Shown in pieces: positions 17,495 through 59,447 of a stretch of 64,000 bases of DNA. The stretch is from Sphagnum magellanicum (Eukaryota; Streptophyta; Sphagnopsida; Sphagnales; Sphagnaceae). The notes under the pieces are model-generated. The model did no database searches. It had not been told where the DNA came from and saw only the letters and a program-made list of their open reading frames with translations. The position numbers and the translations under genes were made by a program. The stretch is taken from contig CM038910.1 in the NCBI GenBank assembly GCA_021904315.1, positions 868,001-932,000 of the forward strand. Direction: 5' to 3'. Position 1 is the first letter of the stretch; each line of letters starts with the position of its first letter.

Positions 17495-19098
17495 TCAAGC
17501 TAGAAGACCTATCCTGGCTTTCTCATTGGTCCAATCTATGATGGCATCATTGTAAGGAAAGGAATCAATAGTGTAGAAGGGTTGTGCAAACATACGAACC
17601 ACTAGATCCAAATGCTCACAAAGTCTGTTCCACATTCTTGTCTTCATGAAGGTTAAGGTTGAAAAAGTTCTTTCATCCTCAACAAACCCCATGATTTGGA
17701 CCACAACTAATTCTACCACCTTAATGAACTCAGAGAGGCGTGCACATAATAATGCATTGGAGGTAAGCTTTTTCCATAATCTAGAAATTGGATTGAAATC
17801 CATGGGTTGGTCCATAGACCATTGAACGTTTGACATCAAGGATGATCTTGAAGAAGGAGGCTTGCAAGTTTAGAATATTTGCATCAAGAAATGTTGGGAT
17901 CCATGTCTAAGAGGATCCAAGCTTTCTAGGCTAATAATAATTTTTTTTCAAAACATCCATGTGAATAGGGAAGCTAGACTCACACGTGCTTTTGAACCAA
18001 TATTACAAATAAACCACACCTAAAACATCCATCACATCATGTGCATGAAATCATTTTTCAAGTTCATCACTAACCTTTGTTGTAGCTTGGGAACACTACA
18101 TTTGCACATTGTTCATGGAATGTTGGAAGAAAGCATGAGTCACAAGCAGATATAATGTTGTTTCAAGGCAATGACAATGCATCATGGTAAAAATGCTAGC
18201 AATCTGAAAACTAAGATTTTCCAACCCCATATTCAGGTCAAGTGCCCATTCATGCATCACCACATTAGAAGTTTCATTCAACAAATTTCGATAACCATGG
18301 AACACATCACTTAAGTAGGCATTATGGGGGCCATTGTACCAGTAATACAAATATGTGTGGCATAATTTCATAGCAACAACAAAATCACATACAAAACACT
18401 CTTGAAATTGGGAGAATTTCATCAATTCATTCAATCCTTCAAGCATGGGCATGATGCAAAAGAGGCCCAACATTACCTCCAAGTCACAAAGAAGTTTCAG
18501 ATTATGGGCAACCTGTGTGATAGTGTCGACATCTCGATGCATCTTCAAGACCAAGGCATTGTATTCTAACAAAACCCTCTTGGCTATAAGTAGCATTGAA
18601 ATCCAATGCGTCTTGATGTTTATGAGAATCTATTGCCCCCCTATTTCCATGATGTCAACTAGTTTGATGAACTCTTGAGTTTTCTTTGGGCTATAAGAAA
18701 AAGAAGAATACAAGCTCTTCATAACATCTTCAATTTTCCCCACAATGCCCGTCTTAGAAAGTGTTTACACAACCAAATTTGTGTGATGACTCGTGCAATG
18801 CACACCAATCATGAACAATGTAGTTTGGGTTTTAAGTTGGAGTGTCACACCTATTCTAACACCCTGAAAGACATTTAATCCATCAACTCCAAATGTGATC
18901 AACTTGGATGCAATATTTTCTTGTGTTAGATCACCATATAAAACCAAAACATCCACCAAAATGCACTTAAAGTTATTTGAAGTGGCCCCATCAACCACTT
19001 GTTGCAATGACAATCACAAAAAAATTCTTTGCCAACTTCCAACCACATATGCATGTATCAAAACCCATGATTGTTGGTCACAAGTTGTGACTTCATCA
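17495..19098 (-). pseudogene. hAT-family transposase, C-terminal half (degenerate)
   Basis: The minus strand encodes blocks typical of plant hAT transposases. These are CDEVTTCDQQSWVLIHAYVV at the broken edge, KLITFGVDGLNVFQG carrying a conserved Asp, MIGVHCTSHHTNL, then near the C-terminus VEDERTFSTLTFMKTRMWN and CEHLDLVVRMFAQPFY. Stops and frameshifts interrupt the frame, so it is inactive. The N-terminal half lies at 37509-38457 on the same strand. Rejoining across the 19099-37508 element restores SLSC-DEVTT, so this was one transposon copy before the insertion. The hAT terminal inverted repeats were not located. Confidence 0.8.
19096..19098 (+). repeat. Left target-site duplication (TCA) of the CACTA element
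   Basis: TCA directly precedes the CACTA terminus and is repeated at 37509-37511 directly after TAGTG. Three-base duplications are the rule for CACTA transposons. Confidence 0.8.
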
Positions 19099-19245
19099 CA
19101 CTAATAGAAAACCTAGGATTTACGACTGGTGTTTACGACTAGTTTTTAGTCGTAGGCGACATTTTACAACTATTTTGCTATTAGTCGCCTAAGACAAGTC
19201 GCAAGCGACAAATAGTCGCAAAAACCAGTTACATCAGCATGACGT
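19099..19245 (+). repeat. Left terminal and subterminal repeats of the CACTA element
   Basis: The terminus CACTAATAGAAAAC is followed by TTTACGACTGG, TTTACGACTAG, TTAGTCGTAGGCGAC, TTAGTCGCC, AAGTCGCAAGCGAC and ATAGTCGCAA. These are direct and inverted versions of one short motif. The right end carries the same motif family. Confidence 0.8.
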
Positions 19246-19540
19246 CACCAAATGGTGGATGGAGCCTAAATGTAGTACATAGGTAGTATATACGATTTCA
19301 TCCGATGGTATCCTAATCGTGTGAGTAAGGAGTGGCCATGTTTTTTCCGATTAACTAATGGGTTGTTGCCACATGGCATGATTTCTAGTATTTGGGAAAC
19401 CAAATTGTGATATTGAATTTTCTAAATCAAATGGCCAAGAAATGGCCACGTCTTTTCTGTTTGGCTAATCCAAATGTGCCACGTGTCTCAATATGAGCAT
19501 TTTGAACTTTTGAATCGCCATGTGTCACATGGTCCCAATA

Positions 19541-19806
19541 TTAGGGTTAGGGTTAGGGCTAGGGTCCCACTCTTAGGGTTACGGTTAGGGTTAGGGTCTC
19601 ATTATTAGGGTTAAGGTTAGGGTTAGGGCTAGGGCTAGGGTCCCACTATTAGGGTTAGGGTTAAGGTCCCACTATTAGGGTTAGGGTCCCACTATTAGGG
19701 TTAGGGTTAAGGTTCCATTATTAGGGTTAAGGTTAGGGTTCCATTATTAGGGTTAGGGTTAGGGTCCCACTATTAGGGTTAGGGTTAGGGTTTAGGGTTT
19801 AGGGTT
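19541..19806 (+). repeat. Interstitial telomere-like array (TTAGGG with TCCCACTA spacers)
   Basis: Runs of two to four TTAGGG or TTTAGGG units are separated by GTCCCACTATTA or GTTCCATTATTA. The sequence gives a higher-order repeat of about 20-35 bp. It starts about 440 bp inside the left end of the CACTA element. It is too interrupted and too far inside to be a chromosome end. Confidence 0.9.
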
Positions 19807-22800
19807 CATATGTTTTGTTCAATGTGTTATGTAGAATTGCCAAGAGTGCTTGTCAACAACAGATCGATCAACAAAACTCTACAATCACTGAGAAACACAT
19901 GCACAAGGCAAAGAATTGCATATTCCAAAAGGAAAGTTACAAAATTGTGGGAACATTTTCCAAGGTTCAGCAATAGCAAAAAAACATTGTGCAACAGAAA
20001 GGTGCTTTTCAGGCCTCGACTACCAATTGATGCCAAAGAAGAAAATTTTTGCAATGGCCTAGCTTGAGTGCTATCCCTTTTTCCTTGTCTGGGTTCTCGA
20101 ATTCCAGAACACTCTGAGATTCTTGAAGACTCCAGGGCGTAAGACTGCCCCCACATGTTCCTCTCTTGCAAAACCCTGAGCTCAGGTGATGCTTGAATTT
20201 TGAATGCTTTAAATATCTTTACACTACTTATTATCACTAATGACAATGGGGTTTTTTTAATAATTATATATTTTCAAAGTGCCTTGATTTTTCACAAAAT
20301 ACATATATAATTTTGTTGACAACAATGGGGGGTGGGGGTTAACATTCATCCCATGACAACATTTTCTTAATTGCTTAACATTGTCGATGAAAATGATTTT
20401 TTTAATTTTAAAAATTATTTTGGTCCCATCATCATATTTTCCCTTATAGTCATATTATCCATCATTATTAATTGACATTCAAGTTTGAAATATTAATACT
20501 TGGACAACAAATAAAAATGGATATATATTTTTTTTTAATTTTTTTTTTAATTTTCCAATCATGGATGATTTCATCCAATAATTTATTTATTTAATACAAT
20601 TAATAAACAAAATTCATCCATGAAAAATGACATTCATCCATATGAAATCATTCATCTATGGACACGTTCATCCATGTAGGTGGATTAAAATCACATTAAG
20701 CTTTAAATTATAAGTTCCAAACTCCAAGCTCAAGCTTTCCCCTCATGCACAAACCATCTTCTGACAAAATTGGCCCTTTTCACCCCCTAATCGTGAATCT
20801 TTACCAAAAAATTCCTTTGAGTTGGAAATTCCAAATGAAGTTAATCCATTTAAGGGGTTGTGACTTTTAACAAGTCTTGAACCTTCAAAATGTCATTTGA
20901 AGGTTAAAATCTTGTATAAATTGATTGTTTTGGGTGTCATTGGAAATATCTGAAAAGAAAAAATATTTATATTGGGCGCACATTCCTTGAATAAAGGTGT
21001 AACATGATAATTGCAAACATTCAAAAATCAAAACACAAATTATCCAAAAGCTACTCAACCAATCAAAACATGAATTAAATGTGCAAATTCAAAAACTTTT
21101 TATGACATTAGAAAATGGTCATCATATAGGGCATTACTAGAATGGGTTGCATGCCCAAATCAATTGTGTTTTTCCAAAGTTATAACACTTAAATTTTTGA
21201 CACTAGATGTATTTATTTCAGAATTCATATTGCCCTTTTCCCCCACCCCCCCCCCAACTTATATTTGAGTGCACAAGGACACATTGATTTGGTTGAAAAA
21301 TTCAACAATTTTAGAGGCTAAGAGATAGCTTCATTTTGGGCATGTGAGGGCACCTTTTATAGCTCTTTCCAACAAAACAAATAATTCAATAATTGACATA
21401 CACCTTGAAAATGTTATTGTCAAGTTTTTTCCATAGTGTAATAGATATGACATGAATGATATTTTTAATGCTCTTAAGCATGATATATTTTGCTAATTTA
21501 ATCTTGGCATTAGTTTTTTTATAGGTAACATGACATCTAGGTGTATTGAAATCTAAAATGTTTTTGTTAATTGACAATAAATGTATACCTTACTTCAAGG
21601 TTAGATTTGTCATTAAATAATTGTCAAAATAGTGAAATGATTTTTTGTGAAAATAGGAAGTGGCATGTTGAAAATTGTCATAATTATCATAGGCTACACT
21701 TTGAATAATTTCACTACTCGTATGACAATATCATAATATATCATGGAAAATTCAATAATTTCCAATTTTATTAACAAATTGATTCTTTTCATTAAAAATG
21801 TGTTCATAATGTCAATGTGGAAACTAACTTTAGGCTAGGGTAATAACTTAATAAATGAAATTTATGTCTAATAGGTAGAAGGCATTAAATGTGAACACCT
21901 ATTAAATTCCTTGTTTGTTGAGATTATGATGATGTTAAAGGTAGAAATTGATTATTGAATTTTTGTTTACATAGTTACCTAGGGTCAAAAGTGGGTTTTG
22001 TTCACCCTAATGAATAAAGGGGATAAGTTATTTGAAAGTCTACCACTAAATTTATGGATGTTTACATAAGAGGATGATTACATGTGAAAAGTGTCACAAG
22101 ATTCAACAAATTGAAAGATGAATTTTTATTTGATCTTTTGAAGTAACCTTGGCAAGATTTAGTTCATCCTTGGTGGAAAGACGACATGAGGATTCTACTC
22201 AAAATTAATATTTTAAGAAATGATGATTTAAAAAAAGATTAAAAAATCAACTTTTAAGTAATAATTGACACCAAATATTTTTCAATTTATTTCTAAAAAT
22301 AACATCCTTAGAGTTGAGAATATTACTACCAAAGAAATAAGTATTAGTAGATAGGTCAAGCCCAACCTTTTTTTAAAAAAATCTTTTATCTTTAAGTTCA
22401 TTCTTTTTCTTGGTCATTCCATTGATTCCAAACTCATTTTCATATTTTTTGAAATGTTGAAATTTTGTTGGTTGATTTGTAGCTTATGGTTTTTTTCTTA
22501 AAACTCCCATAGGAACAACAAGGTAATGCAAAACACATGTTAATTGTTTAAGACACTTGCAGTAAATGATATGGAGCAAGTTTTGTTTTTAACATTATGT
22601 GTCATGGGTTTGTTTTAGTTTTGTTGGTTGATCTAGTTTTGTGTTATGTGTTAACCCAAAGAGGTGCAATTATGAAGCAAGGCAAGGATTCAGGTATGTG
22701 ATTAATCGGGTATATAAGACTCGATTCTTTAACAAAAACCTATATGGGCAAAAAGGTTCCTTTATCAAGGTTTTTGGATTACCCCCTTCAAAACACATGT

Positions 22801-25193
22801 TGAATCTTCAACGATGTCCTACAAAATCGAGTCTTTGCCAAGTCTTTAAGGATTTGACAAACAATCACAACTCTTTTAAGTTTATAGGGCAAGCTCCTAA
22901 TAGTCTAAAACAACACTAATATTTTGCAACTAAACACATGTGTTACTTGAATGTACAAGCATCAATCACAACTCAAAATGCATATTGATTATTAGTAATA
23001 GCTAAAAGAACTTGAAGAATTTTTTTTCTTTCAATTGGTAGTTAGCACAATCCACATGTATGAAATTGTTATTGATCCAAGTTTTTGAAAGACACCCTAC
23101 CTTGTTATTCTCCTCAAGTAGGGCTGGTTATGGATATTTACATTTTTTTAATCATCGATTATGAGGTGGGGATAGGTGTTAACTTTCAAAAAATGTTGAA
23201 TAGGAGGGGGAGTCTAGGTTTTTTGAAAAAGTAAAACCCAACAAGCATATATGCATATACCTAGTCTAATACTTGGTTAATAACCAATGCAAAAACAAAT
23301 ACCCAACCCACATTGGTAATGACAACTATAACAACAACAAAAGAGATGAAAAAAAGGAAAAAGGGGGGGGGTGGAGCTTAATTCCATCAGTCTTCGAATG
23401 GTGTTTTTCGAGCCTCTCCCAAACCTTGGAGGTGTAGCAAGATCTAAACATTCGTGAGGCTCAAGGGATTACTACAATATATAAAACTACATGCGATTCA
23501 ATCACAAGAAACAATTGTAGGAGATTCAACTATAAAAGATTTAATTATAAAATATGACTACAAAAGATTTTATTGTAGGAAATGGTTGTAGGAAATTGCA
23601 ATATAGGAGATGGTTGTAAGAGATAAGACTACACGAGATTTGATTGCAAGAGATGGTTGCATGATTTGACCACCAAAATCACAGATTTTAAATAAATTAT
23701 ATTTTCCATTTTGGAATTAATTTCCATTTATCCTTTGGAAATTCATATCTCACCTATATGGAGGTAGAATCATAAATCATGTGCGTTAGTGGGCTTTTGA
23801 AGGGGAATACCACCAATGTGGGAAATTTTAATCCATTTGGAAATTTAAAATTTTGGATTATTTTTTTAATGAATTGTGTGGTTGGATGTGGGATGGGTTA
23901 GCAACCATGTTTTGAGGATTCTTTTCCATTTTTGCCAAGTAAACACCCATTCCCATTTATGATAAATGGTGGAGTGTTGTGCCATCAACAAATGTGAAAC
24001 ATTTGAATTTTTATATTGATTATTGTGTGGGGATCACAAAAATGGATATTTGTGTTGCATAATTTGTGCATATTCACTTATGTTTGTTGGGTTGCATTTG
24101 TTTCCTATTAATATGTTGGTTAAATTATCATTTGATTTCAAAGGGTAATGGGGTTGCTAAAACACGTATGACTACAACCTAGGTTGAACACATGTTCTTA
24201 AGATGACCTATTACTGATGTGTGTTTATTACTCATTGTGAAATTCTAAATGAAAGACCATGTGTTTTATCAAGTGTGCCTTTATCACTACAATGAGCTTG
24301 GGTCTGTGATTGACATTTGGTTTGTTGGATCATGTTGATTAAGTTTTAACTAGATTTAAATTATATTGGGATGTGCGATTGTGGATGGTTTCGATTTTGA
24401 TCAATAGGATGTCCCATTGTTTAGTGTTGTGGTGAGATCGGGTTGATGATTAGTAGACCATTTTTGTCATGTTCACAATGTGCTTAAATGTTGTTGGCCT
24501 TGTGAAATGTTTTTGTGGGTGTAGGTGTCTTAGTCATATAGGTGCAGCATCATTGAATTTATGTTAGGGGAGTTATGGTTTAAGGGGTTGATTTAAAGGG
24601 TAGGTTAAGCTACAAGAAGTTCCATATCCTTTTAATTTTTATATAATCCATTACATGTTCAACAAACTTTGGTTACCAAAGGTTCCAGGCTAGACACCCA
24701 AATTAACATTAAGGATCAACATGAAAGGGGTACAAGATTTAAGAACATGGAACATTGTCACCATCACCAATGGTTTACCAAGTGCCAAGTGTGGTTCAAA
24801 CCACCCACACCACTTTCATCATCATTGAGTGGGGGAATTTTCATATTCAAAAACAAGTTCACCTTAGAGGGTTATCACCACACCATTGTTGTGGGACATG
24901 GACAACATGAATGGGGCCACCAAATCATGTTAATATTCAAGGGTGATTAGCACCGTTGAACTAGATGATTTCATCCAATAATTTGATAATTGATGTGATA
25001 TGCAACATATATGAAATCCTTAATTGTTTACACCCTTCATGGCATGGAAGGGTTTATTTTAGCCTATGGATGATTATCACGAGTTTAGGCGTGCCCATTG
25101 GGAACATGATATTTTATATTTTCATTTTTATATATTATTAAATGTGTATTATTTTATTACTTTCTTATGTATTTTGCATAGAAAAATGTAATT
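19807..25193. other. AT-rich interior of the CACTA element, no gene recognised
   Basis: Only short, scattered reading frames are present, for example 22641-22919 (+), which has no recognised family. Short direct repeats around GATGGTTGTAAGAGAT lie at about 23470-23665. No transposase motifs were found. Confidence 0.6.
23470..23665 (+). repeat. Degenerate short tandem repeat (GATGGTTGTAGGA-like)
   Basis: Variants such as AGATTTGATTGCAAGAGAT, AGATGGTTGTAAGAGAT and GAAATGGTTGTAGGAAAT follow each other through this stretch, about 16-20 bp per unit. No coding potential was seen. Confidence 0.6.
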
Positions 25194-27511
25194 CAGTAGT
25201 AGAAATCATGTCGTTTGCAACCAATCACTATGCAACTAATTGTTGGTTGCAACTATTTCGATCATGTTTCCAACTATAAATTTGGTATTGTATAATTTTT
25301 AGGCCAACAATTATGTGTAACTAACATGCAACTAAATGTGTGTAACATGGACATGTGTCATAAAAATAATGATCTAAACTTATACATACTCAAATTAGTA
25401 TACTTAATATATCTACATAGGCTATATATAATAATATTATGTACCTCTAGTACTAAAGTTAAACCCATGCTAATTAAGGTTAACTTAAATTAACCTAGGT
25501 TAAATTAAATTAGGTTAAACTAACTATGGCTAATTTAGATTAAGCTAAATTAAATTAAATTAAAATAACCGTGGTTAAATTAAGTTGAGCTAAATTAATT
25601 ATGCCTAAACTAAATTAAATTAGGCTAAACTAACCAAAACTAAATTAAGTTAGGGTAAAATAATTATGGTTGAATTAAATTAGGCAAAAATTGACCATGG
25701 TTAAATTAAGCCAAGCTAAATTAATTATGGTTAAATTAAATTAAATTGGTTAAATTCCCCATAACTAGATTAAGTTAAGCTAAAATAATCATGGTTAAAT
25801 TAAATTAGGCAAAAAATGACCATGGCTAAATTAAATTAGGCCAAACTAATTATGGCTAAATTAAGTTAGGCAAAATCATTTATGGCTAAACTAAATTAGG
25901 TTATATTAATTATGATTAAACTAAATCAAACTAAATTAAATTAGGCTAAAACAACTATGATTTAATTAAGTTAGGGCAAACTAATTGTGGCAAAATTAAG
26001 TTAGGTTAAAATATTTATGGTTAAACTAAATTAAATTAAGATAAAATAACTATGGTTAAATTAAATTATGCCAAATGAATTATGGCTAAATTAAGTTAAC
26101 CAAAAATATTCATGGCTAAATTAAATTAAGTTAAAATTAACTATGGCCAAATTAAATTAAATTAAACTAATTATGGCTAAAATAAATTATTAAAGTGCAA
26201 AGAAAAGGAGTAATGAAAAATTAACAAGAAGAAAAATAGGAAAGATAAGCTTTATAAATTACAAAACGTTTTCCTTTTCCTTTTTTTTCTCTTTCAACCC
26301 CTCCTACTTTCAAACTTTTTAATTTTCTTGTTTCTTATTCATTTTAAACGATTTAAAGTGTTATAGGAGCGCCACTTGAAGTTATTCAAATCATTTTTGA
26401 AATCTAATAGCAACATAACAACATAAAAGGAACTTTTTTGGTGTTTAAGAATTGGCTTTTGTAGTTTTCTATGGTTTGTTTTTTTGAATTCTAGACCCCC
26501 TTCATTTTGGGGGGCAATAACTTTCTCATTTGTAATCCATTTTCGATGATTCTTGGTGTGTTCGATGTGCTAAAAGGAAGGCTTCAAGTTTTGTTCGGAT
26601 GTCAGAAGCAATAGAGCCCTCCCTAGGTTGGTATATTCTAATACAATAGTTATATCTAATGAGCACATAAGTTGGTTAATGAGGTTTAAAATGGAATTTT
26701 TTATCCCATATCCTTTAGATTCCAATTCAATTTGGCATAGTATATAAATTAGGGGCAATAACTATGTACTAACCAAATACCAAGTGCCATTGGGGATGAA
26801 TGAAAAAAAAAAAAAAAAAAACTTGACCTTTATAAAATGGCTAAACTTAAAAATAAAATTGGATTATTCTAAACCTACTTACATAGCCTAAGCCTACTTA
26901 CTTTTCAACCTACTTACATACCTAAGTAAACCTAGCTACCTAGTAGGGTTTAATAATTACCTAGCTACCACATGTCAACATCTTATAACCTTAAATTATA
27001 CGACTTAGATTTTATTAATTAATATTTTAAAATAAAAAGGCGGGCCTTAATTGCCATATGTCACCATATAATTGGTGTTTAAAATTGAACACATGTCAAA
27101 TGGTCAATGAATGTTCCATGGTGTGACACATGTCATCATCTTAGTGGAAGAGACTTTAATAATTGAGATTAATCCAATGAATTTTTAATTTAAAAAACAC
27201 ACAAATAATTAAAAAGTGACATGTGTCCAACTGCAAGTTGTTCAATTTTTAAACATGTGTCATACTTTGATTAGTTATGTTGTAGTTATAAAGAGAGTTG
27301 CACATAAGGTTCAACTACATTTGGATTAATATGTATGGATGGACATGTATATTAACATTGTATAAACATGTTGCATATGTAGTGTTGCATGCAATTAAAT
27401 GTCACGTGCAACTTGTTTTAGGCAACTACACAAATTTATAGTTGCATATGTCTCATGCAACTGAATTTTAATTGCAAACGACAGTTGCAAAACCCAAAAT
27501 TTGTAATAATG
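25194..27511. mobile_element. Nested TIR element, 2.3 kb, inside the CACTA element
   Basis: The left end starts CAGTAGTAGAAATC. The reverse-complemented right end starts CATTATTACAAATT. Both ends then share TGTCGTTTGCAA followed by repeated TGCAACTA motifs in subterminal positions. ATT flanks both sides (25191-25193, 27512-27514), consistent with a 3-bp target duplication. The layout mimics a degenerate CACTA/MITE-type element. It contains the minisatellite at 25462-26190 and no transposase. Confidence 0.6.
25462..26190 (+). repeat. AT-rich minisatellite of TTAAATTAAATTAGGCTAAA units
   Basis: About 730 bp are made of variants of TTAAATTAAGTTAGG, CTAAACTAATTATGG and CTAAA. The period is roughly 35-40 bp and units diverge by substitutions and small indels. 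The GC content is very low and there is no ORF. Confidence 0.85.
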
Positions 27512-29630
27512 ATTCAATATTAACCAATTTGGTTATGATTTTTTATTTTCAAAAAAATTATACAATTTTTATATGTATGTTTTCTTAAATATCATAATCA
27601 TTCTTGGAAAATTAGTTCAATTATATTTTGCTTCTAAAGTTTGATGGTTTTATTCTTTACAACATTTTTTTTTTATTACAATGAAAAGATGTAAAACAAA
27701 AATGATAATTCAAACTTGTTTTACCTCTAGTTTTAAAAAAATTATAATTCAAATTCAATAACTAATAAAAAATAACCAATATCTAACAAATAACAAAAAT
27801 AATTAAATTATAAGCAAATCAAATTAATAAGCTAAAAAAATATGATTAACACCTATTAGGTTCAAATTTTTAAATGGCACATGTATTGGTCACCCAACTA
27901 TGTGTTTATTACTAGAGTGCCTATGGTCCCCAAACCTACTTCCACTTTAAGTGCAATTATAAAATCTTTAATAATAGTGTGACAAGTGGAATGGCAGTTC
28001 CACTGGAAGTGGTGCTATTGATCCTTCCATTAGTATGCAAGGTCCTTTGCCCACATTCGAATGTGGAATTCTTTCGAGAATTACAATAGAATTATCAAGG
28101 TTTTAAACCAAAAATTTGAAGAGTTTACAAGAATTTCAACATAAGCCCCCATGAGAACTTATAAAAAACCTATGCATAAATGCATAGATTGATCATGGTG
28201 ACACAAGGCATGACAAAAGCCCAAGCAATCCAATTTTGGTATGGGATCCTAGACAAGGAATTTAGGCATCAAGTGAGGGATGCCATGTTACTTCTACCCA
28301 CACAACCCACTTTGGCAAGTGTGTTCCAATATTGGAATTCATAGAAATGAACATTATGGATCTATGAATGGTTACATTTCGTAAGAAGGAAAACCCATTG
28401 AATGCATCCACACTCTCAATTCAACCACCTTATGGCTAGCCAAATACATTGCATTTAAAGTTCCATTATGTTGGTTAGATTTTTAGGCCTTCCACATGGG
28501 GTTTAACTATTGGAGGGTAACATCCACGATCAAGATGTACTCCCATATGGAGAGTGGGCAATGTTAAGAAATGCCATTCATTTAACTTCTTGCATTGGAT
28601 CTTAACCCACAATGGGGTGCATTAACCAAGCTACAAGCATTGGCCAATTATTTTATCAAGTTTGGCACATTTTACTATCACCAAGCTCTAAGACAGTTGT
28701 GGATGTTAGTAATGGGTTGTTAGGGTTAAGCTCATCAAACACCAAGGTTATTCTATTGGATATTTCCAAAGATGGTAAATTTATGGTTCAACCATAATGT
28801 TATAATCAAGGATCCAAGTATGGCGATACAACTATGTGGAGTGGAATCCATAGGTTAGACATGCTTCCAAATGTCATGTTAAGATGTTGTAGCAATGTCC
28901 CATTTTGTTGCCAACATTAGTTATTCAAGGTTATTGACAATTTTTGCCAGACAACATCACATTGTTGGAGGTGCAAAATTTGGATATGATTGGGATAGTA
29001 GATTTGGTCATTTTAAGATGGTCGTGTTCCTCCTATGTAGTTGCAAGACAAATGCTGGGCAAATTGAGTCTGTAGTCTGTGAGACTAGTACTTCCTACAA
29101 TTTTTCAAGTCAGCCCCACCTATACTTGTTGGAAATTGCCTGTGCTTTTCTTGAACCACCTGATGTGAGGGTGGAACAGGTATAATTCTGAGGTGTATGG
29201 GTTGATGCAGGGTTCTCAAACTCTCCGGTGTTCTCTGAAGTGTCCATTGAAATGCATTGAGAGCATTGTGCTGCTCTGGACAGAGCACTGAAAGCAGAGC
29301 CTGCACAAAGATGAACACAAACAGCTTATCAAAGATGTTTCCACTAGACTTGTGAGTGTAGAGCATTGGACAAACATATGAAATTGCAGCTGAAGATATG
29401 AGACATCTTCACAGTCAGAGACAAGTACCCAGTCAGACACCTGTGCAGAAAACAAGAATTCAAAAAGCTACAGCACAAAGAAGGAAAGTCTTTTCCTGCT
29501 TTATCAGACCAAGCACACACACAAATCTCACATGGAAAAGATACAAACCAAGCCAAGGTTGAAAGAATCAGGAAAGAGAGTAGCCTAGACCTCAACAATG
29601 GAGCATAAGCATAGATAAAGTTGGGCTTAC
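27512..29630. other. CACTA interior between nested element and NSF fragment
   Basis: No gene was recognised. A plus-strand open stretch at 28612-28797 and another at 28895-29185 have no family assignment. Expected NSF exons after the D2 Walker A exon were looked for on the minus strand and are absent. Confidence 0.5.
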
Positions 29631-32600
29631 AATTTTAATGAATGGAAAACCACTTTCAATTCCAATAGTTGCTGCCAATGCTGTCTTACCACTGCAGGCA
29701 AGTAAAAAACATGTGACAATATACATGTTACTTCTTATGCTAAAACTGAAAATCATTGCCACTTACTCTGATTGCATGAAGCAAGTCAAACAAGCAGAAA
29801 TGCCTCTTCACATATGGATATTTGCAACTTGCTCATTATGAAAGATGAAGGAAGGAGAAAACACATTTGAAGCATGACTCTGTCCTTGATGCTTTAAGCA
29901 TTTTCTGAGCAAAAGCACCAGCACAGAACTCATAGCAACTGCCTTTAGCATGGAACTCTTGTAGCCTCTCACAATGCATCGAGAGGACTGCACCCAAGAT
30001 AAGATATGTACCTGCCACCAGGTCCTTCAAGGAGGCAAGTGAGCAGAGGTGTTCTCTCACTTTGAATGATACTTGCTCCACAAAAGTCATGATTGTTCTT
30101 TGAATATGTGCATGTCTCTCTCCATAATCCAGCATCCCATTCAATTTGTAATGACCAAACTGAATGAGTAATCCTGCTAAGGTACAGTGCTGCAGTGTTT
30201 ACATGACATCCCCCCAAGACAAATGAGAGTGCCATAAGCAATAAAATCTTTACTGGCTGTTAGACACAAAACCAATCTGAAAGCAATTTGTTTGAAAACA
30301 GTTAGGAAAGATGAACCTGCACATCTCGAGAGTGTTGATGGCTGCACCAAATGCAGGTTTCATCTCATTGAGAGTTGACATGAAATCATCCATGGTCACT
30401 TTGATGTTGTCCTCAACTATTTCCCTTGAAAGGTCTGCAGCACTCACTTGCCTGAAGCAATCACAAAACAAGAACTGGGCTTAGCAGAACAGAAAGCAAC
30501 CATGAATTCAAGAGTGTCTGCAACTCTTGATTACTTGCTTCTTTACATTGTCAGACTTAGTGTATAATCCAGGCAACCAACTAGCTTAACACATGAGAGG
30601 TGTGGTAAAGGTGGCATGGACTGGTCTGCTTTTAATTTCAGTTGATTGGGTTGTTGCTGGTACTGCTAACCTAGAGCAAGATAGGCTTGGGAACGCATTC
30701 TTGATTTTGCCAAAATCTAAATTTCCCAAAATAGAAAAGGATGTCACTTGAAAGTTACAAAACCTGTTGAGAGCAAAAGATGTTGCGCTTTTAACCAGCC
30801 CTTCCAACTTTGCTCCACTGAAATTCTTTGTTTTTAATGCTGCACATTTGATGCATCCAATTGACCAACTTTGGTAATACCCATTGTTGGGCAAATCTAG
30901 GCTTAAAACTTGGTTTGATATTAGTCTTGGTATTAAACAACTGATCAAACTTGTGCGACTTGAGGCAATACCAACCTCATATCAATACTTGCTTGGTAGG
31001 AACTTGAGGTCATATCAATATAATGCTAAGGTTATAGATGTCTCAATACCATATAATATATATGTACCACATACCAGCCAAACATTAGTCTTGGAGCCTG
31101 ATACCAGGAGCAGGTTGATATGAAAGTTTAAAACGAAGGTCGAATACTAGTACCAAGTTTGTATGAAAAAATCTAAAAGGTTTGAAACTAATATGAGTTG
31201 GTATTGGTATGTTTAAAAGTTGATACCTGTTCAACAATGGTAATAACCTTGTGGGTAAGAAAATTGTTTTCACATCTACTTGAAGGAAAATTCGGTTTCT
31301 AAACAACAACTGCACAAGTATAGAGGCCTCTGAAGAAAGCATTGTTCCCATCATCTTGTCATTCCCATGACATTTAGCATCATCCTTGGCATTGTCTTGA
31401 CATTTTTTCCACCTTTGATTCAACCTAGTAAGGATGTCCTTGAACCAAAATGTCCCATCCCAATCCACATTTTTAATATGCACACTTTAATTTAAGATGT
31501 TCAACAAGGTTTCTTGAAAATTGGGTTATCATGCTCTAGTATAATTTGGACATATTGTCCTTTTAATTGGCCCAATTATTTCAAGTTGGAGGTAAAAACA
31601 TCAAACATAATCCATATTTGTTGTGTTGAGCAAATCTCATCCCCTATAATAACTATACCATATTTGGTTCCCATGTGGTTTTGGTCAAGGGCGCCTTAGG
31701 TTGGGATGACGAACTATCCCCATTGCCTTGAGGTTAAAAGCATAACTTGTGGTTATTATGCATAACACTTGGGGCTACCACAATGTCTTGGTGCCCCACA
31801 TCACCAACCTCTTTCCAAACACCCATAAACCCCTCTTGGTGGTCTTAATCCCACATATCTTAAAGATGTGTAATTCATGTTGTAACATCACCTCCCCCTT
31901 GCAATGATATCACTATCCTAACTAGTGGTGTAACAAGTGGAAATGTAAGGTGGGTATGTGGGAAAGATTGGGCCAAATGTGCTTGTTCAGCCAAGGTTAA
32001 ATTAAAATATCATGTGAGGCAATTAAGGTTCATAACTTGCCCCAAAATCCACAAGTATGAATTCTTTTAGGAATGTTGAACATGGTTGGTGCTAATGTGA
32101 AAGGCAATGGCCCATTTTCGTTCATTCACATTAGGGTCCTCCATTTAAAGATAATGGAGTCCCAAATCATCATGGGACCTCCATCCCTAAAAACATGAAA
32201 ACATGAAAAACTCAAGATTGTTAGTAGGGTTGTTCATGGAAAGCCAACCTTATTAACCACCACACAAGGCGGCCATGGCTAGTCATCATGATGAACCACA
32301 TGTCAATGGTAGATTCAATAAGTCATCCACCAAACATGTGGGTCATTTAAGGATGAACAAATATGCTTGCTGGATCACCTTTAATGGTGTTATGTTAATG
32401 CATAACCATTGGAATTGATGGGCGTGTGAACCAACTACAATAACATCCATTTACACGGATCAAGAACTAGCTTCAATTTGGTTTAATAATTCCTTAACAG
32501 TGTGCTAGATGAAACAAACCACCTGTAGTCAATGAAACAAATGCATTGAAATTTCAACCCACACAAAATTGCCAGATTGACCAACAGAGGAGTCTACCAA

Positions 32601-32992
32601 GTTCTTTCAAGTCAACATCAGCACTAAGAAATGAGTTCTCTTTCATCTTGTTAGAATGGCTGCTCAGGATCTGGAACCGCCCTTTCTCATCTGGCAGTCT
32701 AATCTCAATTTGCATTTCCATACGACCTGGCCTGCAACAAAATATAGGGTCAAACCAAAACCCAATGTTGCTCTACAAAGCAATAACATCTTTGAATTCA
32801 TGTGGATGCCCATCCCTGTTCCATTCAACATACAGCTATCCTGTTGCACAACAGTAATGCTGTAGAGTCTCTATCCATGAGAAATGAAAACTCAAATAAG
32901 CATACTTACCGTAACAGAGCCTCATCAAGGAGGTCCTTTCTGTTTGTCATTCCAATGAGCAAAATGTTGTTGAGGGTTTCAACACCATCAAT
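29631..32992 (-). pseudogene. NSF: Captured NSF (vesicle-fusing ATPase) fragment, D1 end to D2 Walker A
   Basis: Exons in transcription order: 32992-32910 ([20 protein letters not shown]), 32731-32598 ([19 protein letters not shown]), 30839-30764 (KTKNFSGAKLEGLVKSA), 30472-30317 (LSREIVEDNIKVTMDDF), about 30145-30012 (MLDYGERHAHIQRTIM, then LLTCLLEGPGG), 29691-29631 (SGKTALAATIGIESGFPF). NSF disassembles SNARE complexes, but this copy cannot. The N domain, the D1 Walker A/B and everything after the D2 Walker A are missing. The acceptor before 30145 reads AA instead of AG, and a 1-nt frameshift lies near 30065. The 1.75-kb intron at 30763-32598 may hold further insertions. Introns are retained, so the source was genomic DNA. 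Confidence 0.88.
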
Positions 32993-33311
32993 CTGTCCAA
33001 CAATTCCAAGATTTGAACACTCTGCCTTAAAATTAGCAAGTTTGAGCTCAGGATTAAGAAGACCTGAACAACCAGCACTTGAAGATTTCTAACTGACCTA
33101 GGGGTATGTCCAATGACAAATGTTGAATGCCTATCAATGTAGGTAGAGCTGCCACAAGTAAACACATCAACCTGTTTGGGGTTGTCACACACACACACTT
33201 AAATCTCAGCTTTGTACTGAAACACCAATTCACAAAAACTCTGTTGATTTTGTCCATCCTATCTTAGATTCACATAGAGCTTGAGCAAAGGTTTTAGGGA
33301 ATAGAACTTAC

Positions 33312-33420
33312 AAGCATGAACACGACCGTACAACATCCTCTCCCCCTTCCACCATTCTAGAGGCTTTGACTTTGATTCGTGTACTAACGCGCTTCCCACC
33401 CTACCATCTTGTCTCTGCCT
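33312..33420 (-). pseudogene. Captured exon encoding a CENP-C motif (frameshifted)
   Basis: One frame reads GGKRVSTRIK and, after a 1-nt shift near 33371, the next reads SKPLEWWKGERMLYGRVH followed by a GTAAG donor. Joined in alignment terms these follow the conserved CENP-C signature (RRSTRIK, then SRPLEYWKGERFLYGR in plants). That motif contacts the centromeric nucleosome. The shift falls inside the motif, so this copy is non-functional. Identification rests on this one motif. The next CENP-C exon was not found. Confidence 0.65.
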
Positions 33421-33539
33421 CTGCACACTTCAATCAAACTGTAAGGGGGCTCCAGTTTCCCAAACCGAAACATGCACACTATCATGATTGTCAGTGGTAC
33501 ATGGTGATTGCACAAAGGATTCACTCTTGTATACCTGTA

Positions 33540-34400
33540 TAAATTTGGAAAAGAATATGAGAGAATGTGAATTTTACCCAAAGGATTGATGTACTGTTTT
33601 TTTCTGTCATATGGTCTTCTCTGCTGTTTTTGTTGTTTTATAGGAGTGACTCCACTGTTACTGGGAGCTGATTCCAACACAATATCTCCACACAAGTTTG
33701 GGTCTACCTGCATAACCAAGAGGTGAGTACAAACACAATGCTTGTTAGAAAGATGAGTCACAAAATGATCTCTTGCTTCCAACACATTTGATAACTTTGG
33801 TAGGTTTTTTAAGATTAAGAGGCAAATGCTACCTGATCATGTCCTTGGCTGCTATGCTAAGCTTCTCCATGCTTCTCAATGGGCATATCAACAGTAGCAA
33901 CATCCTTCTCATTTTCAACTGTTCAGCACCCAGTTATCAGAAATTCCATTGCAACTTTCTACAGCATGGGATCTTAATATAATAAACAATGTCAAACTAA
34001 GAGTGCAAAATCTAAGTCGTTACAAAACCCAACAGAAAAGCAAGCTTGACGAACAGTTTGAGAAGAGTGAGAAAAGACAAGATACCTTCAAGGACAGCCG
34101 GGATCTGGATTGACAGATGGGTCTCCTTGTCAGAAGGCTGTGACTGTAAAACCAAGACACGATAGAAATTAGCACAACTAGAAGCAAGAATCTTGATATC
34201 CATGATTTGGAATTGGAAAGAGGAAAGGGCATCCTCTTGAAAGTCCACATATTTCTCATCTGCAACCCAATCATCAGGAGTCAATACCTGTACACTTGTT
34301 TTCAGCATGTTCGGTTCACAAGGAGTCACATTCGATGGTTGCTCAGATGATAGAACAGAAGAAACCTGGGCCCTGCCACCTGCACTTCCATAAAAGTGTC
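33540..34400 (-). pseudogene. Putative captured exons of unassigned origin
   Basis: Three exon-like minus-strand blocks with plausible splice sites are seen. About 33715-33570 contains DPNLCGDIVLESAPSNSGV. About 34140-34085 (SQPSDKETHLSIQIPAVLEG) lies between CAG and GTATC. About 34380-34190 contains VSSVLSSEQPSNVTP and DDWVADEKYVDFQEDALSSF. They may be fast-evolving upstream exons of the same CENP-C copy, or a fourth donor gene. No family was recognised. Confidence 0.35.
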
Positions 34401-35014
34401 AGGTTAATCCAAGCCCAATTTGATGGAAGGGGGGCTAGTGCAAGCAAAAATGAGTCCCATCCAGAAATTATCCTAGCTTATTTTTGTTACAGTTGGGTAC
34501 AATTTGTAAATCATCAAACAAAGTGGGACCACCTCTGCAAGTAGATTCCTTTCTACCCTCACATGTTCAACCTACCCCATACCATTTCAACCACCCCATT
34601 TAGGCTGCTGGCAGAAAATCATAACATGGACAGAAGTACAGAGGGCATCTGCATGGTACCATACAACAGAGATACACAACAGGGAGAAAGCATGGATTTA
34701 GTCAGACATTACCTGCCCTCTTGACAACATCTCAGACTTTTTCAACTTTTTCATCACATACACGTCCCCAGTTGCTTTCGCTCTACAAAGTCTTACCTAC
34801 ATTGCCAATTTTACCAGTCAGCTACTATAACAGTTGCAAGAAAAAAACAAACGGCCACAGATATACCGCCCATAAATCTATTTGTAGGTTTCTTCCAATT
34901 TGAAGCATCCCCAAATCAGTCCACTACCAGAAATCACTCAAACCCTAATTGAACACTGTAATTACAATGAAGCTCAAACTTGGTGTAAAAAGTTGGATAT
35001 TATCACATTCATAC

Positions 35015-37111
35015 CTGTAGTGATTCGTTTTCTCTGTCCACCAAAAATCCCTCGATGTAGGTCATCACCAACCATAGTATCCGCACACACATCAAGACCT
35101 AATACCTGCAGTAACAATTGAAAGGTAAAAATGGCACCTCCAGTCCATGAATTGTCTCACCTGGGAAGAATTATTAAGCCATAATTGGAATTGCAAACAG
35201 AAACAAATTTTATTTACACTTAAGCTAAAAAAACAATTTTACCATTTTTGAGGGGAGCTGAAATGACCATTTCTCAGGGTTTAGGGTATTGTTTTACAAC
35301 TAACCCTTAGAATGTAGTCTATAGCAATACTGCTTGAGACTCCTTCCAAAGATGTTGCCTACAACCAGCAGAAAAAATCATCACACAGAAACACAAATTA
35401 AAACTCAGATTCCATTACTATCCCCATTGTTGGGACTTTGCTTTCATCCCTGGTGGATAAAAATCTACACAATTTTTTTTATCTATATTCTTTTTTGCAA
35501 CAATTTCAGAAAGTGTAGAAAGTTTCATAACTCACTTTCATGAAGGCGTCCACATCCGCCTCAGGTTGAATGCCAGCCTGCTTCTCTCGTCTGCTGACTT
35601 CCATCAATTCTGTATGAACAAAATTAAATCAATTGTTTCACACATCAGTGGCTCAGACTCCCTAAGTGACCAAAACAGATTCAGCACCTCTCTCACACAG
35701 AAATCAAAAATCACAATATAAAATAAATCCAGACTTTTTTGCAATCTTTGGAGCATCAAAGGAAGAGCTAAAACCATGTGCATAAAACCATCAGTTGGAC
35801 TTCTCAATCTCTTCTTGTGGGGGTAGAAACAAAACATATGTCCTGGAGTTAGCACCCATCAGCTCACACTTTCGCAGGATAGTAGTAACAAAGATTTTTG
35901 TAAGGAAGGATTTTGAACTAACCATATCAGGTACCAATGCCTTGACATTGAGCAGAGAAATCAAGTGTTTCACGAACTATCATTTCACCAACATGAAGAT
36001 CATTCTGGCTAATATAAGCTGCTATTTTCTCAAGCACAAATTCATCATGCGTATGTCCATTATACATGATCTTCCCCTTCACCTGCAAATTTCATCAACG
36101 TAAGTAACCATTTAATTAATGCAGGAAATTAATTCTCAGAAAGCACATAATTATACAAAAGCCTGAAAAACCCTAAATCTTTAGCATAGAGTTATATAGA
36201 ATCCCAGAAAACCCCTAAACCTTTAGGGCTCATTTTTAGCTTTGGTCACAGACTCCATTTAGACAAAGAAAACCAGCTTCTACCAAGTCAATAAGTGTCC
36301 TCCCAATGGCTCTCACCCTTAAATCCTTGTCGAGCTTTCCAGCAAGTGCCAGCAGCAGAGTTGTCTTCCCAGAACTTGGTGGACCAAGCAGCAATGTCAA
36401 TCTATAACAGATCCCCGATTTAATCACCACCAGCAGCCATACATCAGAATGCATTTATGGAAAAAAAACAACAGGGAGGAGGAGAAAGGCCAGACAACAC
36501 AAGAACAAGAAGAAAACTTCTCCAACAAATTTGAAAAATGTGACAAGAAGAAGCAGAAGAAGGAGCACAAAGTCAGTCTTTCATACGTACTTTTGTAGAC
36601 GATTGCGCATCCTGACCAGGATCTACTGGTTTTCATCTTCGCTAGATTTCGGCAAATTGTCAAGAAGCTGGCGGCGATCAGCGGCAGTCAGCAGTCTCAC
36701 GTCCACGGGGTCAGTGTTTCTTGTGGCGGAGTTGAAGAAGACGGAAGTACGCAAGCAATCGTAAGTAGGGAGACTTTCCAAGGCCGCCCACTTGAGCGCT
36801 TCCTCGTCGTCTTGTGCATCCTCTCGTCGCGACACTAACGATCTCGCTAGCGGATTGTCCTGTCCGCCTAACAACTCCCAAATCCCCCGCAAACTCCCAC
36901 TGAACTCCCTCAAACTCCTTGACACAAGACCACCTGAAGAAACACTGCTTCCTCCTCTTGTACTGCCCCTTACCGATCCACCTCCTATCCAAGGTATTGC
37001 GGTGCCGCCACATGCACCGCCACCTTCTGGTAGCACCGCCGATATCTCCCCCGAGGCCATCGCCTCGATGCCACTCAGATCAGGAACTGAAACGCCACCA
37101 AAGAAGTTCAT
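35015..37111 (-). pseudogene. Captured 5' fragment of a PDR/ABCG full-size transporter
   Basis: Exons: 37111-36591 (WAALESLPTYDCLRTSVF, DVRLLTAADRRQLLD), 36401-36317 (Walker A block [20 protein letters not shown]), 36082-35923 ([33 protein letters not shown]), 35609-35536 (REKQAGIQPEADVDAFMK), 35358-35305 (ATSLEGVSSSIAIDYILR), 35105-35015 ([19 protein letters not shown], then [10 protein letters not shown]). PDR proteins are plasma-membrane exporters of about 1,400 residues. Only the N-terminus and part of the first nucleotide-binding domain are here. A TAG (36625-36623) interrupts exon 1 and a TGA (35929-35927) replaces the Arg of GTRYE. The exons between 36591 and 36401 are deleted, and the signature SGGQ reads FGGQ. 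The ATG is about 400 bp inside the right end of the CACTA element. Confidence 0.92.
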
Positions 37112-37259
37112 CTACAAACAGAAACTTGCTAAGACCTTGAGTAATATATGGGTACATCTTAGTATGTACCCATATAACAATGAGTAGAATACATTCAATA
37201 CACAATTGTGGACCCCTTATGCCTAAAATGTGTATAATACATTTGGAATACCCACAGGG

Positions 37260-37508
37260 CTACGACTCATTTGGTGACATTTGTAACTAATGGTAGGTAG
37301 AAGGGTCTTCTTGGATGGAAATTGTGTTGAAAGCTATCCAAATGAAAGGATGAAAAAATCCATTAGTCGCAAGTTAGTCATAAAGTAGTTGCAAGCAAGA
37401 CCAAATGCAAAAAATAGTTGTAAATATGACCAACAATAGTCGTAAATGTCAAATAGTCACAACTAGTCGCAAATTGGTTGGTTACAAAAACCCAGTTTTC
37501 TTCTAGTG
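37260..37508 (-). repeat. Right terminal and subterminal repeats of the CACTA element
   Basis: Read from the end on the minus strand: CACTAGAAGAAAAC, then TTTGCGACTAG, TTGTGACTA, TTTACGACTA, TTTACAACTA, TTGCAACTA, TTATGACTAA and TTGCGACTAA. The same motif family occupies the left end in the opposite sense. Confidence 0.8.
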
Positions 37509-37511
37509 TCA
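37509..37511 (+). repeat. Right target-site duplication (TCA) of the CACTA element
   Basis: TCA follows the TAGTG terminus and matches 19096-19098. Confidence 0.8.
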
Positions 37512-38457
37512 CAAGAAAGGGAAATGAATTGAACACTCTAAACCAAATTCCTTATTTTGTTCATAACAGCCTCATGCATATAGGTTGCCATCTCCCAATT
37601 AATGTTATTGGACCAATGCATTCTAAGATAATTTGGTGCACTAAGGAATTGCAACAACTTGCTCATGTTCTCATAATTGGTCATGGGTTTACCTTTAAAT
37701 AACAAATGAAAACAAATAAAAAATTGGACCAACTTCTTTTTCCTCTCGTCAATAACAACATGGGAAATTTAATTAATAACAAAAATTTTCCTAACTATTG
37801 CGTACAATTGTTCATTCTTAGTATGAACCAAATATTTGTTCATGTAGTATTCACCAACTTTATAGACCCATGCAGTCACAATAACACATACCATAGCAAG
37901 TGTAATGCTTATTTGATTTTTTTCATGTTTTTAAATCGTAATTTAATTTGATGTTGAAATTGAAATATTTTTTAATATTATTATATTTTAAATATATCAT
38001 GGGAACATGTGAATTAATTTAAAATTAATCCAATGAATACAAAATTAACAAAAAAATTCATTAAACATTGTAACGTTTGCTTTTAAGCGGTAAAAGGACT
38101 TGTAAATGGTTTCAGATTTTTTGAAAATGACATTTTTTACCAAAATTTTAACATGAACCTTAATAAAATAGTATGAAAAAAAAAATTTAATTTAAAAAAA
38201 AAATTTCAAGAATATTTCCCTAAAAGCAATCAAAAAGTAGGAGGGTGCGGTTTGTGTTATCTCGTTTGCACCCCCCTTGGATATTGGTTAAAGCTTTCCT
38301 CCTACCACCATGTTTCCAAAGCTTGTCCAATTTAGGGGTTAGTATTTTTTTTTTCCCCTTAATTTTATTGTAGACTTTACATCTGACTTGATGCACTTTC
38401 CCATTTACATCCACCAAAAATTTAGCCCAAGGGAGTTTTGCACTCCAAGCATCTTAA
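37509..38457 (-). pseudogene. hAT-family transposase, N-terminal half (degenerate)
   Basis: The minus strand opens with a BED-finger-like block: LPWAKFLVDVNGKVHQVRC, then LTPKLDKLWKHGGRRK with paired Cys/His positions (C-VY, KH). Further on comes MTNYENMSKLLQFLSAPN followed by NINWEMATYMHEAVMNKIRN, a conserved stretch ahead of the catalytic domain in this hAT group. A stop follows RNLV and other stops lie between the blocks. The frame resumes at 19098 beyond the inserted element. Confidence 0.78.
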
Positions 38458-59312: not shown

Positions 59313-59447
59313 CCAATATTTCTCACATCCAAGCTTAGTTATCTACCATTTTCCAAACCACCCATAACTTTGAAACTGGCCAATATTTCTCACATCCAAG
59401 CTTAGTTATCTACCATTTTCCAAACCACCCATAACTTTGAAACTGGC
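59313..59447 (+). repeat. Perfect 67-bp tandem duplication
   Basis: CCAATATTTCTCACATCCAA starts at 59313 and again at 59380. By eye the two units are identical through ATAACTTTGAAACTGG, so the duplication is recent. Confidence 0.9.

Follow-up and report, generated by a model that had tools for sequence, protein, structure and literature searches.

The ways in which CACTA and other cut-and-paste transposons take up host genes have so far been argued mostly from their finished products. Among the closest described systems are Pack-CACTA and other Pack-TYPE elements of Arabidopsis, maize, and rice, which are non-autonomous, bounded by terminal inverted repeats (TIRs), and filled with host coding DNA from several donor loci (PMC8903248). 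In the model proposed for them, the inner ends of two adjacent elements are lost and the pair then transposes as a single unit (PMC8903248; restated in the review PMC13317346). We describe a comparable element in a 64,000-nucleotide stretch of the peat moss Sphagnum magellanicum (assembly GCA_021904315.1, contig CM038910.1, positions 868,001 to 932,000), hereafter the window. The element at positions 19099–37508 shares the listed features of Pack-TYPE elements and is very probably a non-autonomous, gene-carrying CACTA element of Sphagnum that was formed by the serial hybridisation of CACTA elements. The two contributing families are here called A and B. The initial annotation of this DNA had placed the element in a flowering-plant frame; however, its host is a moss. 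The words “moss” and “bryophyte” are absent from the main text of PMC8903248, PMC13317346, and PMC8978399. A survey of titles and opening parts of abstracts, which covered few subscription papers, returned no gene-capturing CACTA element of such a kind from a bryophyte. CACTA elements as such are common in Sphagnum: in a published Sphagnum genome, unclassified repeats (7.8%) and CACTA elements (6.8%) are the most abundant types (PMC9946827).

Termini and Class of the Element

The interval 19099–37508 is one CACTA insertion of 18.4 kb that begins with CACTAATAGAAAACC and ends with ...GTTTTCTTCTAGTG. Its borders are marked by the following features.

19096–19098, no strand: left copy of the target site duplication (TSD) TCA, from the flanking letters
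19099–19113, plus strand: left CACTA terminus CACTAATAGAAAACC, read from the sequence; the left 300 bp has nine genome copies at 96–100%, the window included
19120–19221, no strand: left subterminal TAGTCG-type repeats in both orientations, from a motif scan
37364–37472, plus strand: right subterminal TAGTCG-type repeats, mostly in a single orientation, from a motif scan
37494–37508, minus strand: right CACTA terminus, which reads CACTAGAAGAAAACT on this strand
37509–37511, no strand: right copy of the TSD TCA, from the flanking letters

The 15-bp termini are imperfect inverted repeats with 12 of 15 positions identical. Near matches to the terminus occur 48 times in the window, and mismatch-free ones only at the two ends of the element. 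The subterminal motif TAGTYGYAA, with at most one mismatch, is found six times in the 150 bp from 19120 and eight times in the 150 bp from 37364; averaged over the window, it occurs 0.21 times per 150 bp. Its total in the whole window (89, with 57 expected) was reached by none of 100 shuffled sequences. The single CACTA insertion of the initial annotation, with its CACTA-type termini, TAGTCG subterminal motifs, and TCA duplication, is confirmed. The element shows the hallmarks of the CACTA superfamily, namely CACTA-type (imperfect) termini, a 3-bp TSD, subterminal repeats, and related copies at unlinked sites. It also has those of Pack-TYPE or Pack-CACTA elements, being TIR-bounded and non-autonomous, containing host coding DNA that is also present elsewhere in the genome, and belonging to a multi-copy family with common ends. 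No transposase domain was found in 19099–37508 by Pfam in any of the six frames at E 0.1, which agrees with the initial annotation, in which no transposase had been seen. The Pfam matches in its frames were the AAA and AAA-lid domains of NSF and, below threshold and all weak, AAA_16, allene oxide cyclase, and Pneumo_M2.

Gene Fragments Carried by the Element

Pieces of four donor genes are carried, all on the minus strand. Three of them had been recognised before as minus-strand NSF, probable CENP-C, and PDR pieces with retained introns, and their exons and mostly intact splice sites bear this out; however, the count of three donors was too low, as an NDR-type kinase is represented at 34529–34961.

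29631–32992, minus strand: NSF fragment, exons IDGVE to FPFIKI, approximately residues 383–593 in the numbering of chain 6ip2_B
33105–34530, minus strand: CENP-C fragment with introns and the CENP-C motif KPLEWWKGERMLYGRVH, matched exon by exon to the Sphagnum CENP-C proteins P0130 and P0133
34529–34961, minus strand: NDR-type kinase piece of 433 bp (one exon, an intron, and part of the next exon) that fills the joint between families A and B; match to STK38, E 2e-7
34962–37067, minus strand: fragment of a PDR (ABCG) transporter that begins slightly 5′ of the likely start codon at 37060 and runs to the LGLDVCADT exon, from a protein search
37068–37508, no strand: right terminal region of family B, within which the longest PDR frame opens (ATG at 37111), from genome copies

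The NSF exons are colinear with solved NSF/Sec18 chains. Inspection by eye revealed one lost acceptor AG and one shifted reading frame in NSF, its splice sites being otherwise mostly intact, a frame break in the motif exon and one in-frame stop in CENP-C, and two in-frame stops in PDR. The part of PDR that should connect exon 1 with the Walker A exon is missing, again by eye and by comparison with other PDR proteins. The cargo is most likely functionless in this copy, since all four fragments are truncated and those of NSF, CENP-C, and PDR have further lesions in the form of stops, a broken frame, or the loss of a splice site. The presence of introns with mostly intact splice sites indicates that DNA, not cDNA, was copied. 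Because the terminal region of family B takes over from PDR at 37068, the ATG at 37111 is transposon sequence. The protein search for PDR covered candidates of approximately 441–1403 amino acids only (7,990 scored) and could thus not have shown a true donor of greater length. The exons at 34378–33578, first considered a possible further donor, were assigned to CENP-C by protein matches.

Hybrid Structure and Joints

Alignment with related copies shows the element to be a hybrid to which two CACTA families contributed. The family-A part and three stretches that interrupt it in the window are as follows.

19099–34530, no strand: family-A part (left terminus, NSF, CENP-C), colinear in copies L018–L023, partly in L024, and in the hybrid L017, except for the window-only inserts
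20197–29024, no strand: 8.8-kb AT-rich insert, found in the window only and without a flanking duplication
30847–31295, no strand: extra sequence in an NSF intron, absent from eight aligned copies
31343–32463, no strand: extra sequence in an NSF intron, absent from eight aligned copies

The family-A elements L018–L023 are 7.5–7.7 kb long and match the window at 19099–20196, 29025–30846, 31296–31342, and 32464–34530. Beyond 34530, they diverge from the window and have their own right terminus. L024 follows the family-A order only up to 33406, its right end lying outside the sequence compared. The family-B part, 34962–37508, carries PDR, and a copy from this family, L047, matches the window from 37508 to 34962 and then diverges. 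A second hybrid, L017 on C6 near 15.89 Mb, measures 8,047 bp, has the TSD ACC, and matches the window over both joints; between 32464 and 37508 the two are 98.7% identical over 5,045 bp. Since L017 matches the window across both joints, the left and right ends now move as one unit. Approximately 10 kb of the window's 18.4 kb, including a nested older CACTA element, is absent from L017. The initial annotation had named termini belonging to two different elements as a finding that would speak against it. This applies to their origin in two CACTA families but not to their present state as a single unit.

The copies, the joints, and the separate TSDs of both hybrids can be seen directly in the genome. 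Clean 3-bp TSDs flank six of the eight two-ended elements (window TCA, L017 ACC, L018 TTT, L020 TAT, L021 TCA, L022 TTT), while L019 has CAA with a damaged left end and the TSD of L023 is ambiguous. In a tree of the 2.07-kb CENP-C/NSF block, the window copy and L017 are sisters inside family A (support 0.925), with four sites private to the pair.

The joints can be placed to the base. The family-A match ends at 34530, and the match to the NDR gene starts at 34529; here family A reads ...GTGGGACC, the NDR gene ...GTCCACCTCTG, and the window ...GTGGGACCACCTCTG, with a 2-bp overlap, CC. At the other joint, NDR ...CTGTAA is followed by family B TTACAATG, blunt and without overlap. The NDR piece is 97.4% identical (419/430) to a gene-like locus at C12:8772715, where kinase-domain exons run on beyond the captured part; no such exons were seen on the opposite strand of this locus when that strand was translated. 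Joints of 2 bp and 0 bp resemble filler-DNA repair. Together with a 433-bp filler whose near-identical gene still stands at C12, they favour an origin of the NDR piece and joints by template switching in gap repair after the excision of a family-A element. However, two neighbouring insertions in an NDR gene copy would yield the same product, and further NDR-like loci exist on C4 and C10 at 95–96%. Template switching is a variant of serial hybridisation and does not exclude it; we consider it possible, with chances somewhat short of even. The anatomy of the window element fits the Pack-TYPE fusion model, and template switching would give the 433-bp filler as well.

Copies Across the Genome

The genome searched comprises 439.0 Mb in 31 contigs, with the window at C4:868001–932000. 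The left terminal 300 bp returned 49 rows from the best 40 of 520 candidates, nine of them at 96–100% and 21 nearly full-length at 74–79%. For the right terminal 300 bp (37209–37508), at least 40 copies were found at 92–100%, the window included, among the best 40 of 244 candidates. A search with the terminal regions had been suggested in the initial annotation; it yielded copies for both ends, and their cargo differs by family.

The NSF piece 32589–33000 gave 37 rows, consisting of 25 copies at 95–100%, one split copy (two rows), and ten rows at 66–83% on C5 and C3. Pairing of NSF with the left terminus used 35 of these 37 rows (26 cargo, nine gene-like; the second half of the split copy and one short C5 row were omitted) and 40 left-terminus rows from the best 40 of 520 candidates, with nine second-piece rows omitted. 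A related left terminus lies upstream on the same strand at 25 of the 26 NSF cargo loci and at none of the nine gene-like NSF matches. The distance between left terminus and NSF is 3.0–4.0 kb at 24 paired loci and 13.5 kb in the window copy. Separately, C5:5549770–5727943 contains eight NSF-like loci (nine rows, 66–83%) within 0.18 Mb, a local cluster of genes or pseudogenes.

The CENP-C query 33570–34390 gave ten rows, of which eight are element copies at 98–100%, one is the gene at C10:8963897 (92%), and one is a short row at 72%. The CENP-C stretch lies next to NSF in seven copies besides the window. The CENP-C protein of S. magellanicum is CY35_10G054300 (P0133). The NDR query 34500–34820 gave 12 rows: the two hybrids, loci on C12 (98%), C4 (96%), C10 (96%), and C6:6654413 (80%), and six rows of 31 bp that represent the family-A side of the joint in six non-hybrid family-A copies. 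With the PDR query 36588–37111, 19 rows were obtained, made up of five element copies (one partial, on C14), two gene-like matches at 75–76%, ten matches to the terminal region only, and two short ones.

That a CACTA element carries these host gene pieces, as had been claimed, is upheld by the 25 of 26 NSF loci, the seven CENP-C copies, and the TSD that L017 has of its own. Capture by one element is another matter. On that account, a single Pack-CACTA element took up NSF, CENP-C, and PDR directly and as a unit of 18.4 kb, and the one TSD, the matched termini, and the common strand of the recognised gene pieces would agree with it. However, the pieces are found apart in two other CACTA groups, the second hybrid measures 8.05 kb, and 20197–29024, 30847–31295, and 31343–32463 are absent from all eight other family copies aligned (L017–L024). 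A single 18-kb capture is refuted as stated, the element being a hybrid of two families, and we give direct capture very little credence.

Order of Events

The locus counts are nested: NSF is found at 26 loci, CENP-C at eight (plus one partial, L024), and the hybrid with the full NDR joint at two. The best gene-like matches become closer along the same series, diverging by 20% for NSF, 8% for CENP-C, and 2.6% for NDR. Up to 33105, the NSF-only copy L043 agrees with the window; beyond this point L043 runs on into upstream NSF exons, whereas L018 and the window change to CENP-C DNA. Read in this way, two events each retained the left part and replaced the right one.

Four steps may be proposed. 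In the first, an element with a piece of the NSF gene would have spread. In one lineage, the sequence to the right of 33105 would then have been replaced by CENP-C gene DNA and another right side, which gave family A. In the third step, a family-A element would have lost its right part and become joined through the 433-bp NDR kinase piece to the PDR-carrying right part of a family-B element, after which the outer two termini would have been mobile as one unit at no fewer than two sites. Finally, the 8.8-kb insert and the two smaller ones would have entered the window copy. At least three events probably brought in the pieces, and the hybrid without the window-only inserts is about 8 kb long. 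The order and direction of the steps are our inference. Movement would have depended on a CACTA transposase supplied in trans, and the joining may have occurred through excision and repair between neighbouring insertions or through template switching.

Several observations weigh against this sequence of steps. The left 300 bp of most NSF-only copies is only 74–79% identical (gaps included), while their NSF pieces are 97–99% identical; the left ends may therefore have been swapped as well, in which case this ladder would be a simplification. Among the best 40 of 520 left-terminus candidates, none stands at the NSF cargo locus C1:8202932. The initial annotation had called for the parental genes and their divergence. 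A CENP-C gene matches its piece at 92%, and a donor-like gene matches the NDR piece at 97.4%. The gene-like NSF and PDR matches in the genome are just 75–80% identical, too little to name the exact donors, and a divergence of 20% need not date the capture of NSF. The flanks of L047 (ACT and CAT) do not match, and a complete family-B element is therefore not proven. No source of transposase was found in the frames scanned, namely all six of the element and four of six from L046, a family-B stretch of 6.2 kb in which Pfam matched nothing. L021 and L023 likewise share four private sites, as many as the window copy and L017. Lastly, predicted proteins of other Sphagnum species have an NSF exon (VNQLLTK) before CENP-C, which is not so in L018 and L020. 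An insertion of CENP-C inside an NSF intron, suggested by those proteins, is not claimed, as L018 and L020 are without the upstream NSF exon.

In Sphagnum, these elements may grow by a ratchet: a successful left half would be retained, and its right partner would be exchanged again and again for DNA from host genes plus the end of another element. Every swap that succeeds would set off a new burst, with gene mosaics of rising complexity accumulating in layers. We put the chances of this reading at about even; if true, the ratchet series would be the first described in a bryophyte.

Relatives in Other Sphagnum Species

When the CENP-C pieces were compared with 5.8 billion proteins (E up to 1), 14 matches were found, all from Sphagnum. 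Two are CENP-C proteins, and the other 12, which come from S. jensenii, S. troendelagicum, S. fallax, S. tenellum, and S. balticum, are predicted chimeras of CENP-C and NSF. Both the window and those chimeras that have letters there (8 to 11 of 12) differ from the two CENP-C proteins at eight positions, with one variant at one position. This suggests one founding CENP-C capture for the window and the chimeras, the latter being known as predicted proteins.

The same chimeras, as 12 of the 14 Sphagnum protein matches, could be taken as a sign that the mosaic is a working chimeric gene under selection. Automatic annotation names the relatives in other species Vesicle-fusing ATPase, and chimeric transcripts are produced by the soybean element Tgm-Express1, as described in its report (PMC1947982). 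However, several predicted chimeras, among them P0122, P0124, P0125, and P0126, read through the shifted NSF frame of the window. Moreover, a CENP-C intron that is taken as coding in P0122 is, by eye, at least as alike in the window as the adjoining exons. A working gene is very unlikely on these grounds, and the predicted Sphagnum proteins named Vesicle-fusing ATPase (P0122, P0123, P0129, P0132, P0135) look like transposon cargo, not genes. The assembly of the cargo by another carrier such as a Helitron, around which CACTA ends were added later, is extremely unlikely: plant Helitrons are generally known to carry several gene pieces, but a simple hairpin-plus-CTRRT scan of 18901–37700 found no Helitron-like 3′ end, 3-bp TSDs are present, the CACTA left terminus stands next to 25 of 26 NSF cargo loci, and the termini abut a clean 3-bp TSD in four of six two-ended family-A copies and probably in a fifth.

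Inserts, Flanks, and Neighbouring Features

The insert at 20197–29024 stands in place of 11 bp found in the four other copies inspected, among them L017. The other 24 paired loci, with 3.0–4.0 kb between left end and NSF, have no room for it. A nested element and the two flanks of the insertion were delimited as follows.

25194–27511, no strand: eroded CACTA-like element nested in the 8.8-kb insert, CAGTA.../...TAATG, flanked on either side by ATT; ends alike at 10 of 15 positions
18765–19095, minus strand: left flank, the later part of a degenerate reading frame that runs over the joined flanks, from flank joining
37512–37768, minus strand: right flank, the earlier part of the degenerate frame shared with the left flank, from flank joining

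The left end of the nested element has subterminal TGCAAC-type repeats, and a cluster of six TAGTYGYAA motifs is located at 25215. Its right end is weak, as at least one site at the scan threshold also occurred in 4 of 20 shuffled sequences. An AT-rich array with a 15-bp period (TAAATTAAATTAGGC) occupies 25469–26190 within it. Elsewhere in the insert, the plus strand at 23671–23820 has a degenerate match to allene oxide cyclase (one Pfam match, E 0.005, below the curated cut-off), and the plus-strand frame at 28180–28344, on which Pfam is silent, may be retrotransposon gag-like. A telomere-like array of TTAGGG/TTTAGGG lies near the left end of the element at 19541–19806, with a 26-bp higher unit ending in GTCCCACTA; an inverted relative of this array is found near the right end of family-A elements.

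Joining the flanks with one TCA yields a single frame over the joint; it stays open there for 36 codons between two stops, and both sides remain in frame. It may be that of a hAT-like plant transposase, which Pfam does not recognise; no hAT or DUF4371 domain was found in the joined frame by Pfam. As Pfam is silent on it, the continuous frame supports a single insertion weakly. Scans of viral contigs gave no confirmed relative, with no match for the terminus and pattern matches for the flank peptide (eight) and P0122 (one), none of them confirmed. Farther right in the window, a CBP60 gene at 54175–54729 is 93% identical to a protein of S. jensenii, and Sphagnum accounts for the best 8 of the 120 matches listed. 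At 59312–59447, a 67-bp unit is present in two tandem copies that are 100% identical.

Comparison with Known Systems

The Sphagnum element can now be set beside its described counterparts. As with the Pack-TYPE elements, for which a fusion of two elements has been proposed as a route of DNA acquisition in group AB of a rice Pack-Mariner cluster (PMC8903248), two elements contributed to it. Unlike the examples presented in that article, it has a moss host and kb-sized gene pieces with introns, and its genome contains two hybrids together with relatives from each parent family and, for the joining piece, a donor-like gene that is nearly identical (PMC8903248). The soybean Tgm-Express1 is likewise a CACTA element with exon and intron pieces, taken from five genes (PMC1947982). 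As reported there, it is 5.7 kb long and known from one mutant allele, whereas the history of the Sphagnum pieces can be read from relatives such as the 26 NSF loci (PMC1947982). The Tpn1 family of Ipomoea nil also consists of non-autonomous En/Spm (CACTA) elements with conserved ends and interiors replaced by captured genic DNA (PMC5105172). It belongs to a flowering plant, and a stepwise hybrid series is not described in the parts of that article considered here (PMC5105172). Captured gene fragments are also a feature of the CACTA elements of the Chenopodium album aggregate, which captured tandem repeats in addition (PMC8978399). According to the account of these elements, their fragments lie upstream of transposase domains, in contrast to the Sphagnum element, in which no such domain was found (PMC8978399).

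Multi-donor gene capture by CACTA elements is thereby extended to a moss. With NSF-only, CENP-C plus NSF, and PDR carriers, two hybrids, a donor-like gene, and base-level joints in one genome, the order of events and the mechanism of joining become testable. The element is of a known kind, in an unexpected host, and with an unusually readable history.

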